Shown here in pieces: positions 1 through 39,744 of a stretch of 39,744 bases of DNA (position 1 is the first letter of the stretch; the number at the start of each line of letters is the position of its first letter). The DNA comes from a virus. Under the pieces are notes generated by a model that was given only the letters and a program-made list of their open reading frames with translations, was not told the origin of the DNA and searched no databases. The stretch lies in the IMG/VR virus record IMGVR_UViG_3300045741_000132, positions 1 through 39,744 of that record; one strand, 5' to 3'. Made by a program: the position numbers and the translations under genes.

Positions 1-50
1 CCGCGCGTCTTGCTCGCCTGAATCAAGCCACGGCTCTGATTGCCCGCCAT
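1..50 (-). CDS. Partial: N-terminus of small virion-region protein
   Basis: The first ~16 codons (starting MAGNQSRGLI) of the same gene that is complete at 39174-39476, cut by the window edge. The GGAGGA ribosome site just upstream of the ATG is kept. It is the gene directly downstream of the capsid gene, separated by a hairpin. It is not an extra gene if the genome is circular. Confidence 0.85.
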   Translation of the reverse strand, partial: MAGNQSRGLIQASKTR

Positions 51-67
51 GTGTCCTCCGTGGGTTA

Positions 68-87
68 GCGGGGGCCTAAGCCCCCGC
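68..87 (-). terminator. GC-rich hairpin downstream of the capsid gene
   Basis: Perfect 8-bp inverted repeat GCGGGGGC / GCCCCCGC around a 4-base loop, in the gap between the capsid stop and the next start. On the transcribed (-) strand the loop reads TTAG; in the other allele at 39494-39513 it reads TTCG. No T-run follows, so it is more likely an attenuator or mRNA-stabilising 3' hairpin for the abundant capsid message than a full terminator. Confidence 0.6.
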
Positions 88-107
88 CGCCCCGGTTGAA
101 CTACGTG

Positions 108-1073
108 CTACGCGTTGGTGATTCCGGTCATCGCCGCCCAGCTCGACGGATGATCGAGCTGCAGCGTCGCCTCGAACAGCACGATGCCGCGCGTGTGGTC
201 GCCCGACTTGCCCATCGGCTTGTGCTGCGGAGGCCGGTAGAAGGCGATCTTCGCCATCGAACGGTCGCCGATGTAGTACGCGCCGATAGCGCTCGACGTG
301 CTGATCGGGATGAAGCGATCCACGATCACCGCGTAGAGCTGGTTGAACGGCGTCTCGAACACGTCGATGTTCGCGACGAGCCGCTGGTCGGTCGCCGCGA
401 TGTTGCGGACGTTGCCCGAGCCCGAGGACACGGTGGCGTTGACGAACTGCCGCTTGCTCGCGGGCGCGAACCAGATCGAGTCGGGCTCCGCGCCGTTCTC
501 GAACAGGGTCTGCGACAGCGTGCAGATGTCGGCCGTGGTCACGCCGCCCGAAGCGCTGGACGAGGTCGTGATGCCGAAGCCGCGGAAGCCGGCCATGAGC
601 GGAGCGTTGGTCGCCGCTTCGGCGCCCGTCGCGGAGCCCGTCGAGTTGACGGCCCAGAGACGAGCCTCGCAGTTGCGCGCGAGGACCTTGAACTCCTTCA
701 TGATCTGGTGCTCGTACATGTCGCGGATGCCCGCGGGGTTCGCATCGCGCTCACGATCCGAGACGGCGACGTGACGCGAGAAGATCTGCGTACCGTTCAC
801 CAGCCGGGTCGGAGAGGTCAGCGTATCGCCGCTGAAATCCGCAGCTTCGACCACGCCGGCCGTCGACGTGGCGGCCAGGGTGTCGATCGTCCACGAGTGG
901 ACCACGTCGCGAGCGCGAATCTTCGGCGCCGACGAGAACATCGGCGTCTGGAACGAGTCGAGGATGGTCACGACATCGACCAGATCCTCGTGGTGAACGC
1001 CCGTCGCGTTGTTGAAGAACCCAACGTCGAAGGTCGAGAGAACACCGGAGAGAACACCCTGAGTACCGGGCAT
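108..1073 (-). CDS. Major capsid protein (SU10/DUF5309-like)
   Basis: 321 residues. The protein builds the icosahedral head. The middle part (FSRHVAVSDRERDANPAGIR, then a segment resembling the EFxxLxRxxEaaLW stretch of the family, then a GF/RGFGI loop) resembles the SU10-type/DUF5309 HK97-fold capsid family as I recall it. Size is normal for that family. A GGAGG ribosome site precedes the ATG. It lies directly after a scaffold-like gene and the portal, the standard order. The C-terminus exists in a second allele at the other end of the window with F to M, A to C and I to V changes. A stable hairpin follows the stop. Confidence 0.85.
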   Translation of the reverse strand: MPGTQGVLSGVLSTFDVGFFNNATGVHHEDLVDVVTILDSFQTPMFSSAPKIRARDVVHSWTIDTLAATSTAGVVEAADFSGDTLTSPTRLVNGTQIFSRHVAVSDRERDANPAGIRDMYEHQIMKEFKVLARNCEARLWAVNSTGSATGAEAATNAPLMAGFRGFGITTSSSASGGVTTADICTLSQTLFENGAEPDSIWFAPASKRQFVNATVSSGSGNVRNIAATDQRLVANIDVFETPFNQLYAVIVDRFIPISTSSAIGAYYIGDRSMAKIAFYRPPQHKPMGKSGDHTRGIVLFEATLQLDHPSSWAAMTGITNA

Positions 1074-12314: not shown

Positions 12315-13075
12315 CGGGGCGAATCCTCCCAGGGTCGTCGGTTGATCCAGGTGGCCGGATAGGGGATGAACTTAGGGCCGTCGTCAGCGTGATCCCCCTT
12401 CCAGCGCTCGAGCGCGTCCATCACGCGGTTGAAAAACTCCGCCCCTCCGGCCATCGCCTCAGGCGTGAGCCCTAACTTCCCCCAGGCGGACAGGGCGTCT
12501 GCCTTCCCCTCATGCCGCGGGTAGGCCGGCCAGAAGTGCTCCCCGAAACTCTCCATCCAGTCCTGAGAGGGTTTTGGCCTCGAGGCGCGGGGTTTCGTGC
12601 CGTTCCGAGCAGGAACAGGTGGCTCGTCCCCAACGGAAGTTGGGGGAGAGTCTTTAGGTTCTTCCTCAGTCTTAGTCTTAATCTGAGTCTGCATTGCCCG
12701 AGCATGCCCGAGCATTGCCCGAGCATACCCGGGCATCCAGCGGTGCCTGGCCCCAACACCCCCATGCTCGCTCCGTGCTCGAGCATGCCCCACCTCGTCC
12801 ACCATCCGGCGCTGGATCCACAGCTCGCCCTCTATGGCAAACGCCCCAGCAAACACCTCCCGCTGGCTTTCCCACTCCGCGGCGCTGTACCCCAACAACT
12901 TGCGCCACTCGTCCTCCGGCCCTACCCCCGGAGTGTCCCCCATCCACGAGAAGTCCAGCGCCTCCCGATACCTCCAGCGCTGCTCCGCCGCCATCCTCGC
13001 CACAACCGGGTCCGCATAGAAGTCCTGCGGGCTCCAGCGCATCCACGGCAACGTCCTGCGTCCTTCCCTGGGCAT
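12311..13075 (-). CDS. Replication/helicase-loader-like protein (DUF1376-type)
   Basis: 254 residues from the ATG at 13075, chosen for its AGGAG site 6 bases away and because the protein then opens with RTLPWMRWSPQDFYAD, typical of DUF1376 starts. Residues 15-100 look like that winged-helix-type domain. A charged linker (about 105-160) has tandem GHARAM/GYARAM repeats and an RKTEEE-like tract. The C-terminal ~90 residues (FWPAYPRHEGKADALSAWGK ... KFIPYPATWINRRPWED) match the tail of phage replication proteins that recruit host helicase. It probably starts phage DNA replication with host enzymes. First gene of the leftward unit. Confidence 0.7.
   Translation of the reverse strand: MPREGRRTLPWMRWSPQDFYADPVVARMAAEQRWRYREALDFSWMGDTPGVGPEDEWRKLLGYSAAEWESQREVFAGAFAIEGELWIQRRMVDEVGHARARSEHGGVGARHRWMPGYARAMLGHARAMQTQIKTKTEEEPKDSPPTSVGDEPPVPARNGTKPRASRPKPSQDWMESFGEHFWPAYPRHEGKADALSAWGKLGLTPEAMAGGAEFFNRVMDALERWKGDHADDGPKFIPYPATWINRRPWEDSPR
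12661..12790. other. Iteron-like array next to A/T-richer tract (possible origin)
   Basis: Inside the loader-like gene. Four contiguous 10-11-base units GCAT(T/A)GCCCGA-like start at 12691, 12702, 12712 and 12723. A fifth, GAGCATGCCC, is at 12781-12790 and an inverted CATGCTCG at 12763-12770. Beside them (12661-12690) is a strand-asymmetric, A/T-richer stretch with the repeat AGTCTT. Iterons plus an asymmetric melting tract inside the initiator gene is the arrangement of the lambda origin in gene O. Inference only. Confidence 0.4.
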
Positions 13076-23466: not shown

Positions 23467-23784
23467 ATGGCAACGAAGAAGGTGGCTAAACTCAAGAAGG
23501 TCGGAAAGTACGTGATCGTCCGCACCTGCTCTGCTGGCGTGTTCGCTGGCAACCTGGAATCGCGCAACGGGCAGGAGGTCGTGCTTCGCAACGCGCGGCG
23601 CATCTGGTACTGGAAGGGTGCGGCCACGCTCTCGCAGCTGGGCACCGATGGCACGAGCGCGCCGAAGGAGTGCAAGTTCCCGTGCGAGGTGGATCGCGTC
23701 GAACTGTTGCAGGCAATCGAAATCCTCGACGTGACCGAGGCGGCCGAAGCCTCGATCAAGGCGGTGCCGGTATGGAAAAACTGA
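23467..23784 (+). CDS. DUF6948-like protein
   Basis: 105 residues with a GAGGAGGA ribosome site. GKYVIVRTCSAGVFAGNLES ... NARRIWYWKGAATLSQLGTDG ... KFPCEVD ... LLQAIEI is the DUF6948 pattern, widespread in phages and plasmids; function unknown. It overlaps the start of a Gly-X repeat gene in another frame by 13 bases. Confidence 0.8.
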   Translation: MATKKVAKLKKVGKYVIVRTCSAGVFAGNLESRNGQEVVLRNARRIWYWKGAATLSQLGTDGTSAPKECKFPCEVDRVELLQAIEILDVTEAAEASIKAVPVWKN

Positions 23785-24098
23785 TCGGGTCCGGGGACGG
23801 GTACGGGTACGGGGACGGGTACAGGTACGGGGACGGGTCCGGGGACTGGTACGGGTACGGGTACGGGTACGGGTACGGGTCCGGGTACGGGTACGGGGAC
23901 GGGTCCGGGTCCGGGTACAGGTACGGGGACGGGGACGGGGACGGGTCCGGGGACGGGTACGGGTACGGGTCCGGGTCCGGGTACGGGTACGGGGACGGGT
24001 ACAGGTACGGGGACGGGGACGGGTCCGGGGACGGGTACGGGTACGGGTACGGGTACGGGTACGGGTCCGGGTACGGGTCCGGGTACGGGTACGGGTAG
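23772..24098 (+). CDS. Gly-X repeat protein (GY/GD/GS)
   Basis: 108 residues: a 5-residue head (MEKLI) then ~51 dipeptides G-(Y, D or S) to the end. Every second codon is GGG; the others are TAC, GAC or TCC. Only four positions break the Gly: three AGG (Arg) and one TGG (Trp), all single-base changes. Translation is not certain, but the unbroken frame, its ATG overlapping the DUF6948-like gene and the frame-preserving hexamer repeat support it. Would be flexible and acidic/aromatic, like phase-separating or adhesive low-complexity proteins. Confidence 0.55.
   Translation: MEKLIGSGDGYGYGDGYRYGDGSGDWYGYGYGYGYGSGYGYGDGSGSGYRYGDGDGDGSGDGYGYGSGSGYGYGDGYRYGDGDGSGDGYGYGYGYGYGSGYGSGYGYG
23787..24095 (+). 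repeat. GGGNNC hexamer array (G-quadruplex type)
   Basis: About 51 tandem 6-base units GGGTAC, GGGGAC or GGGTCC with G-runs at regular 6-base spacing. The G3-N3-G3 pattern meets the usual rule for four-stranded G structures on the + (sense) strand and its RNA. Larger blocks recur (three AGG-containing units in the same context), which points to past unequal slippage. The opposite strand also stays open (Pro-Tyr/Asp/Ser), which is a by-product of the repeat. Confidence 0.9.
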
Positions 24099-30374: not shown

Positions 30375-31618
30375 CAGCGGATCCCCAGAGGATCAGAGGT
30401 CTTGGCCGTGGAGTTGGCCGATCCGCCCGCGCGCAGCTTGCGAACGTCCGAGAGAACTCGGTCGACTTCCGCCTGAGAGGGCGGGTGCCCGAGTGCCGCC
30501 TTCTCCATGTGGTCCAGCATCAGCCCGAGGATGCGGAACTTCTCCTTGGCCGTCGCCTGGTTGTCGTCGATGCGCGGGTAGTCGAAGTTCTGCGCTGCCG
30601 CGATCTCGGCCTGGTTGATCCGCAGCCCCTTGCCGAGAGCCGCGAGCGTCTGGATCGTCTTGATCGCGGCCGTGCGATAGGCCGGGTATCCCGAGAGCAC
30701 CGCGTCGTTCTGCCAGATCGCGTTCCACCGATTCGCGGCGCCGCCCTTGATCCTGCCGAGCCCGCCGGTGTTGGGCAACTTCGGAATCAAGTCGTTGGTA
30801 ACGCTCTGGAGATCTCCGCGCACCGAGTCGAGCAACTGGAACACATTGGCTTCCCGGTCCCCGAGCACTGCGATTCCCGCCTTGCGCGCCTCGGCCGTCA
30901 ACTGGTCGCGCATCTTCGGGGTCTTGATCTGACCCGCGTTCAGGTATGGGACTTCCGTTCCGTCAGGCAACTTGCGGATGTCGACCCAGTCAGGGAGCGA
31001 GTTGCCCGCAGTCGTCCCGGGCGTGGCGACTGTCTTCGTCTGCCGTGCTTGCGCTCCCGTGGCTGCAATCTCGGACAGCCGGTTCTGATGCGTCGTCTTG
31101 AGGTTCGCCGCCGCGGCGTCCTCGCGCTGCTTCTGCAGGATCGCGTCCATCGTCTTGCTGAACTTCTCGACCGCGACCTTCTGCTTGAACGCCCCCTCGA
31201 GGTCTCCCGCGTCCGCCGCAGCCTTGGCCTTGAGCGTGGCGTCATCGCGCAACGCGCTCAGGTTCTGCAGCCTGGCGGTCATCAGGTCGTTCTGCTGGCG
31301 CGTCACATCCTGGTGGGCCCTCAGTGCGTAACCGGGATCCTTGGTGAGGATGCTCGCGACGTTGCCCGTCAACTGGGGCAGGCTCTGGGCGAGCGGGTCC
31401 AACTGGGGCGGGGGCGCAGCGGCTGCCGTCGAATACGTTGTCCCGGCGGCCGAAGCGGCCTGTGAAGCCGCTTGGGTCTGCCGGGCGAGTTCGGCGGCCT
31501 GCTTCGCGGACTGGGCATCGAACTGGCTGATGAGCCCCGCGGGGGTCAGCGTGTTCTGCAGGCTCGCCAGTACCGAGGGGTCGGAGAGCATGGCGAGCAC
31601 GCTGTTGTCGAGGTTCAT
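30374..31618 (-). CDS. Helical internal virion-type protein
   Basis: 414 residues, mostly helix, rich in Ala, Gln, Thr and Asp. A coiled-coil region at about 95-175 (RQQNDLMTARLQNLSALRDD). One-base overlap with the next gene (TGATG). No enzymatic motif. Likely an ejection or head-internal protein; inferred from place and composition. Confidence 0.6.
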   Translation of the reverse strand: MNLDNSVLAMLSDPSVLASLQNTLTPAGLISQFDAQSAKQAAELARQTQAASQAASAAGTTYSTAAAAPPPQLDPLAQSLPQLTGNVASILTKDPGYALRAHQDVTRQQNDLMTARLQNLSALRDDATLKAKAAADAGDLEGAFKQKVAVEKFSKTMDAILQKQREDAAAANLKTTHQNRLSEIAATGAQARQTKTVATPGTTAGNSLPDWVDIRKLPDGTEVPYLNAGQIKTPKMRDQLTAEARKAGIAVLGDREANVFQLLDSVRGDLQSVTNDLIPKLPNTGGLGRIKGGAANRWNAIWQNDAVLSGYPAYRTAAIKTIQTLAALGKGLRINQAEIAAAQNFDYPRIDDNQATAKEKFRILGLMLDHMEKAALGHPPSQAEVDRVLSDVRKLRAGGSANSTAKTSDPLGIR

Positions 31619-39476: not shown

Positions 39477-39493
39477 GTGTCCTCCGTGGGTTA

Positions 39494-39513
39494 GCGGGGG
39501 CCGAAGCCCCCGC
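39494..39513 (-). terminator. GC hairpin after the capsid gene, UUCG allele
   Basis: 8-bp stem GCGGGGGC / GCCCCCGC; on the transcribed strand the loop is C(TTCG)G, the very stable tetraloop. The left copy has TTAG in the loop. Confidence 0.6.
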
Positions 39514-39526
39514 CGTCCCGGTTGAA

Positions 39527-39744
39527 CTACGCGTTCGTCACGCCCGTCATCGCCGCCCAGCTCGACGGATGATCGAGCTGCAGCGTGCATTCCATGAGCA
39601 CGATGCCGCGCGTGTGATCGCCCGACTTGCCCATCGGCTTGTGCTGCGGAGGCCGGTAGAAGGCGATCTTCGCCATCGAACGGTCGCCGATGTAGTACGC
39701 GCCGATAGCGCTCGACGTGCTGATCGGGATGAAGCGATCCACGA
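39527..39744 (-). CDS. Partial: C-terminus of major capsid protein (second allele)
   Basis: The last ~72 codons of the capsid protein, cut by the window edge. Compared with the complete gene at 108-1073 the protein changes are F to M, A to C and I to V near the end; the third bases also differ. In the circular reading this is the same gene as 108-1073. Confidence 0.8.
   Translation of the reverse strand, partial: VDRFIPISTSSAIGAYYIGDRSMAKIAFYRPPQHKPMGKSGDHTRGIVLMECTLQLDHPSSWAAMTGVTNA

Follow-up and report, generated by a model that had tools for sequence, protein, structure and literature searches.

The window analyzed, the whole 39,744-nt stretch of IMG/VR virus record IMGVR_UViG_3300045741_000132 (65.2% GC), contains a gene for a DUF6948 protein and, directly behind and overlapping it, an open reading frame (ORF) that consists of a short leader and an array of GGGNNC hexamers (Table 1). 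The encoded low-complexity protein, in which glycine alternates with a residue X, is referred to below as Gly-X; it is acidic (pI about 4.05), and the position of its ORF and the type of its leader were the same in relatives. The original prediction had described about 51 such hexamers in the sense frame, directly following and overlapping a DUF6948-like gene, and both parts held: 52 units were counted in frame, with zero interruptions, and the upstream gene scored 112.6 bits (E = 1e-32) against PF22253, for which the gathering cut-off is 27 bits. The upstream gene is thus a clear member of DUF6948. Pfam covers the domain only, and the literature searched gave no description of the Gly-X partner.

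The first codons of the array were GGG (48 units), AGG (3 units), and TGG (1 unit), and all four non-glycine codons were therefore one-base changes, as had been claimed; the second codons were TAC (27 units), GAC (13 units), TCC (11 units), and TAG (1 unit), and GGGGCC (Gly-Ala) units were absent from the 52 hexamers. TRF detected the array with a period of 6 and 52 copies. The pattern (GGGNNC)x3 occurred 37 times in the whole record versus 0.07 times expected from dinucleotide shuffles, which excludes a chance origin of the array. In 20 other genes of the record, GGG accounted for only 28% of the Gly codons and GGC for 45%, indicating that the array was homogenized to one codon and does not follow a genome preference. 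Recent block duplications within the array were considered and rejected, the longest repeated block (6 units) not exceeding that in shuffles (P = 0.43). Searches of the Gly-X protein against Pfam, PHROG, NCBIfam, and PADLOC gave no meaningful match, with TrAA12 below the cut-off, and neither did an Rfam search of the whole record. The repeat at the two ends of the record points either to an assembly join or to a genome that is circular or has terminal redundancy and was closed over strain variation.

Table 1. Features of the window, with positions in the 39,744-nt record
Feature	Position	Strand	Remarks
DUF6948 gene, 105 aa	23467..23784	+	First gene of the pair; PF22253; predicted Sm/LSm-like fold
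Possible weak Shine-Dalgarno sequence, AAGGCGG	23758..23764	+	Precedes ATG 23772; seen by eye
Gly-X low-complexity protein ORF, 108 aa	23772..24098	+	Start ATG 23772, stop TAG 24098; MEKLI, 51 Gly-X-type dipeptides, and a final Gly
Overlap of Gly-X ORF and DUF6948 gene, 13 nt	23772..23784	+	ATG overlaps a Trp codon of DUF6948 (TGG 23773-23775) that is near-invariant
(GGGNNC)n hexamer array, 52 units	23787..24098	+	X = Tyr/Asp/Ser; last unit, GGGTAG, gives the stop
Short imperfect tandem repeat	12691..12736		10-11 nt unit GCATTGCCCGA; inside a minus-strand ORF
tRNA-His (GTG)	31426..31511	+	ARAGORN; antisense to a long minus-strand ORF
End repeat of the record	1..330 and 39480..39744		Repeats the 3' part of a major capsid-like gene (minus strand), with several mismatches

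Pairing of DUF6948 and Gly-X genes across phages

A scan of IMG/VR with (GGGKMC)x6 returned at least 119 stretches. Among the arrays listed, GGG made up 3002 of about 3085 first codons, and the second codons were TAC, TCC, and GAC, with fewer GCC, AAC, TTC, and CAC; where upstream sequence existed, the preceding ORF was almost always DUF6948-like. For the reverse search, array-linked genes served as the seed of a DUF6948 profile, and the 80 highest-scoring matches of each scan were read. Three diverged types of DUF6948, designated A1 (SAGV), A2 (TTEHRGVFFG), and A3 (DRGFVYVG), were linked by hhalign (A1 with A2, E = 2.6e-13; A3 with A1, E = 4.7e-5), and PF22253 scored 72 bits on A2 and 24.4 and 21.7 bits, slightly under the cut-off, on A3. 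Among the loci counted, which are mutually related and hence phylogenetically non-independent, the next ORF encoded Gly-X in 77 of 80 A1 loci, 76 of 79 A2 loci, and 75 of 76 A3 loci. Two of the A2 negatives carried an inserted HNH-like endonuclease, and the A3 negative looked alike by eye. As a control, the A1 loci (338 kb, 4209 ORFs) contained 18 other Gly-X ORFs, mostly tandem copies just downstream.

On genome and MAG contigs, Gly-X lay beside DUF6948 in about 57 of the 62 loci with sufficient downstream sequence; these loci came from many phyla, with identities down to about 34%. The pair was also present in seven Pectobacterium phages (Ymer genus included), Dickeya phage Setonix, Vibrio IKEMa6-1, Chlorobiaceae CV-1-33, and Iodobacter PhiPLPE, in the last of which the Gly-X ORF is unannotated; no A2-type DUF6948 homologue was found among isolate phages. 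Across loci with the pair, GC content ranged from about 0.26 to about 0.7. The near-constant pairing across such different phages points to an undescribed two-gene module and not to a DNA G-quadruplex element, and both the pairing and its translation are almost certainly real, as judged from the sequences compared. This near-obligate pairing, together with the hypervariability of the arrays, is the main point of the analysis, and both were absent from the original prediction.

Gly-X started at an offset of -13, counted from where the DUF6948 stop ends, in 58 of 78 related A1 loci, and the Gly-X frame relative to DUF6948 was -1 in 74 of 76 A2 loci and 68 of 75 A3 loci with a neighbor. This near-constant frame suggested a programmed -1 frameshift joining both proteins, a candidate that is less favored, since no shared slippery site was seen by eye and a start codon is kept at the overlap; coupled initiation is preferred. 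No DUF6948-Gly-X fusion within a single ORF was present among the arrays examined. The leaders differed between types: an (L/V)RGxxP-like motif occurred in 54 of 74 A2 loci, 0 of 77 A1 loci, and 3 of 76 A3 loci, and an xLD motif just before the array occurred in 44 of 76 A3 loci, 7 of 77 A1 loci, and 1 of 74 A2 loci. Leaders that track the DUF6948 type would fit docking and also common descent; the pairing itself could stem from co-inheritance instead of binding.

The neighbors of DUF6948 loci included SSB, RecE, RecT/ERF/Sak4 annealing proteins, YqaJ exonuclease, DnaB, and regulators, which places the pair in the early replication region. One neighbor gene contained a TROVE (Ro60-type RNA-binding) domain (E = 2e-13). 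Some loci (L171, L185, L186, L190, L204, and L205) carried two to four tandem Gly-X genes behind a single DUF6948 gene. In others (L035, L377, L416, and L506), an HNH-type endonuclease ORF lay between DUF6948 and the Gly-X site, as if homing endonucleases target the junction.

Variation within and between arrays

Each of the 123 DUF6948-linked arrays used one Gly codon (mean share, 94%), the dominant codon being GGC in 86 arrays, GGT in 19, GGG in 12, and GGA in 6. Heterozygosity within the 123 arrays was 0.088 and 0.096 at silent positions 3 and 6, respectively, versus 0.439 and 0.475 at replacement positions 4 and 5. The X residues were Ser, Tyr, and Asp, followed by Asn, Phe, His, and Cys, encoded mostly by TAY and its one-step neighbors. 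Mutation bias (T-to-G and A-to-C) was considered as the origin of the Asp and Ser units and was rejected, because silent T-to-G changes were rare in GGT arrays (6 of 726 codons); the mixed X composition is therefore not attributed to such a bias.

Isolate phages bore out the earlier suggestion that array length can shift by 6-nt units without a frameshift. In phages Ymer and Amona, the 399 nt upstream and the 400 nt downstream of the array were identical, and the arrays themselves (222 nt in Ymer versus 204 nt in Amona) were 12 unit edits apart and differed in order, the exact unit order of the isolate arrays being less certain because the Ymer-genus genomes were assembled with metaSPAdes from short NextSeq 300-cycle Illumina reads (PMC11445585). 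Other arrays of this genus measured 162, 258, and 270 nt, and all differences were multiples of 6. Similarly, in two metagenomic loci whose 600 upstream nucleotides were identical, the Gly-X ORFs were 31 and 67 aa long. Phase-variable ON/OFF contingency relies on a unit that is not a multiple of 3, so that slippage disrupts the reading frame; the array, with its 6-nt unit, does not fit such a locus. In IMG/VR loci, the arrays stood very often at contig ends (for example, in L011, L015, L028, L034, and L043), which suggests that the repeat interrupts the assembly of these phage genomes. By comparison of the arrays, what is kept is composition, with glycine alternating with Ser, Tyr, or Asp, and what is free is order, length, and codon.

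Predicted fold of DUF6948 and domains fused to Gly-X repeats

An AlphaFold model of DUF6948 based on 141 sequences (pLDDT, 92.6; pTM, 0.82) contained an Sm-type five-stranded barrel, a class assignment that describes resemblance of the predicted model only. The best 50 Foldseek matches listed from the PDB were all Sm/LSm proteins, with a probability of 1.00 and a best E value of 1.7e-3, and the best VIA-align score against Sm/LSm proteins was Z = 7.3, below 8 (rmsd, 2.8; 62 residues aligned). The model thus resembles Sm/LSm proteins such as archaeal SmAP and Lsm2-8, but DUF6948 differs from them in its low identity (about 10-25%), in two additional helices, one lying between strands 3 and 4 and the other C-terminal, and at the sequence-profile level, where the profile of the 141 sequences matched no Sm chain in the PDB up to E = 10. 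The signature of an Sm1 Asp/Asn and an Sm2 Arg-Gly was, by eye, not conserved in the DUF6948 consensus, with no RG at the Sm2 position. DUF6948 therefore probably adopts an Sm/LSm-like fold according to the model and, given the lack of a sequence-level match, is called Sm-like in fold only and not a member of the Sm family.

Gly-X repeats also occurred joined to other domains. Among 80 loci retrieved by a conserved C-terminal domain alone, Gly-X preceded the domain in frame in 79, and the remaining locus, which is cut by a contig edge, also reads Gly-X; such in-frame fusion indicates that the repeat is translated. The frame was likewise kept in the DUF6948-linked relatives, and the test by which frameshifts or stops in related copies would speak against a protein role thus came out in favor of the protein. 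The C-terminal domain (L070:362-709 and 69 relatives, alignment A6) was found only behind Gly-X repeats. It had no match in Pfam, in NCBIfam, or among PDB sequences (A5/A6), and its best Foldseek E value was only 0.99. The best of its weak VIA-align matches were mostly ADP-ribosyltransferases (Arr, Z = 6.3; PARP16, Z = 4.7; PARP15, Z = 3.6), a faint resemblance of the model that is a lead only. A near-invariant LH(A/G)T motif in this domain recalls the ART His motif.

In gut phages (L237, L238, L239, L246, L253, L255, L269, L280, and L281), the repeat was joined to a different domain of ~150 aa (...FAHGETL...HHRLTGSC..GR..F...YGG), for which no Pfam, PHROG, or NCBIfam family was found. In L046, L051, and L084, upstream of which no DUF6948 gene was found, Gly-X tails followed unrelated N-terminal domains; that of L051 and L084 reads WPHYRER(V/L)TV.D.LE.G.

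Proposed function of the pair and alternatives

The original prediction had also proposed that the array forms a G-quadruplex track. The record's own array does contain a canonical G3 quadruplex motif (four G3 tracts with short loops), its 48 GGG units standing in G3N3 register, but the quadruplex was not supported as a conserved feature: a three-quartet (G3) motif was present in only 14 of the 123 linked arrays, and a G3 quadruplex as the conserved function was rejected on the Gly codon use of relatives. A purely nucleic-acid element, in which a G3 quadruplex of the DNA or the mRNA would stall replication, transcription, or translation and the protein would be incidental, can draw on that register and on the GGGKMC stretches in IMG/VR, but GGG dominates in a minority of arrays, those built on GGT, GGA, or GGC encode the same protein, and such an element would have no need of a conserved frame, start site, and leader or of a conserved C-terminal domain fused to the array, which makes this reading highly improbable. 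Glycine-rich coding makes G-rich mRNA, so that protein and RNA properties are coupled (PMC11789052). Every Gly-X array has a GG at intervals of 6 nt, which suffices for a weak two-quartet RNA quadruplex and builds it into the coding (cf. PMC11789052); being written into the coding, this motif is inseparable from protein selection by sequence comparison. The phage protein shares with the RNA G-quadruplex/RGG link the G-rich mRNA of glycine-rich coding (PMC11789052) but differs in having no RGG motif and no conserved three-quartet motifs. The comparisons thus indicate that the Gly-X protein and its partner gene are conserved, and not the quadruplex. An equally remote reading makes the array mainly a recombination hot spot, at which near-identical hexamers let co-infecting phages swap modules and the protein is tolerated filler; annealing and exonuclease genes do adjoin, and arrays are swapped or reshuffled while the flanks stay intact, but the Gly codon differs between phages, whose arrays would therefore pair poorly, and the leader and C-terminal domains are conserved, as is the frame throughout the three DUF6948 subfamilies.

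Two further readings give the protein another role. Strict alternation with glycine is the pattern of silk fibroin, and a fibrous structural protein whose alternating strands pack their Gly faces would also tolerate variable length and order. Nevertheless, X is dominated by Ser, Tyr, and Asp, where silk-like proteins have mostly Ala and Ser, Ala is almost absent (7 of about 3700), Asp would disfavor tight sheet packing, some copies are only 16-31 aa, and the neighbors are early replication genes rather than virion genes, so that a silk-like role is unlikely. Only marginally more credible is a conflict module, in which a diversifying, hypervariable Gly-X would serve as decoy, inhibitor, or sponge against host defense with DUF6948 as its partner. 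The acidity of the protein, the very wide spread of these small early genes, their fast change between unchanged flanks, and the variable appended domains, one of them weakly ADP-ribosyltransferase-like with its LH(A/G)T motif, are compatible with conflict, but there was no PADLOC match, Asp is rare in some arrays so that charge mimicry is not constant, and a conserved composition with free order is unlike an interface under escape selection.

The reading that we tentatively prefer, somewhat short of an even chance, is that the array codes for the second protein of a conserved, translationally coupled DUF6948/Gly-X phage cassette, with Gly-X as the partner of an Sm-like core. Hexamer slippage or recombination would continually reshuffle and homogenize the array, yielding uniform silent sites, while selection on the protein would keep a mixed composition of stickers (Tyr/Phe) and spacers (Gly/Ser/Asp). 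The DUF6948 protein may assemble into a nucleic-acid-binding ring or oligomer, and Gly-X, supplied in trans, would be its disordered, multivalent low-complexity partner, docking via the short leader and gathering RNA, single-stranded DNA, or replication and recombination proteins early in infection. Nucleic-acid binding by DUF6948 and a scaffold or condensate function of Gly-X are possible, at roughly one chance in three.

Prion-like low-complexity domains of the hnRNP/FUS type combine Gly with Ser, Tyr, Asn, Asp, and Phe and tolerate changes of order. Gly-X shares this composition and tolerance but differs in its strict dipeptide period, its near lack of Arg and Gln, its viral origin, and its bacterial host. 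By analogy, the closest tested system is Acinetobacter Hfq, in which the number of GGFGGQ repeats in the C-terminal tail matters for function (PMC11617691). Both combine an Sm-type core, predicted in the phage case, with a glycine-rich, disordered region that in Hfq is sensitive to repeat number (PMC11617691). In Hfq, however, the repeats belong to one chain with the core and are not strictly Gly-X, whereas in the phages they form a separate overlapping gene, X is Ser, Tyr, or Asp, and DUF6948 has no detectable Sm sequence signature; more generally, Hfq and LSm proteins with glycine-rich tails are one chain, and the phage arrangement is split into two genes. In the literature searched, which lay largely outside subscription journals and preprints, we found no paper naming DUF6948, no description of the DUF6948/Gly-X pair, and nothing close on phage glycine-rich repeat proteins or phage Sm-like proteins.

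In its widest form, the proposal is that an undescribed two-gene module for RNA or DNA handling occurs in phages of many bacterial phyla, and that in this module an Sm-like ring and a hypervariable Gly-[Ser/Tyr/Asp] protein, selected for composition and not order, would make a viral condensate or multivalent scaffold for early expression or replication, possibly autoregulated via its own G-rich mRNA; this form is speculative, and we hold it with considerable doubt. A pair that is widespread and apparently undescribed would open a large class of "hypothetical" phage genes to testing, and the frequent placement of its arrays at metagenomic contig ends matters for estimates of phage genome completeness. 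The arrays are also a natural experiment on what low-complexity sequences must keep, since glycine alternation and composition are held while order, length, and codons are free. If DUF6948 is a working Sm-like protein, the principle of an Sm core with a glycine-rich disordered partner would extend to phages, split into two genes.
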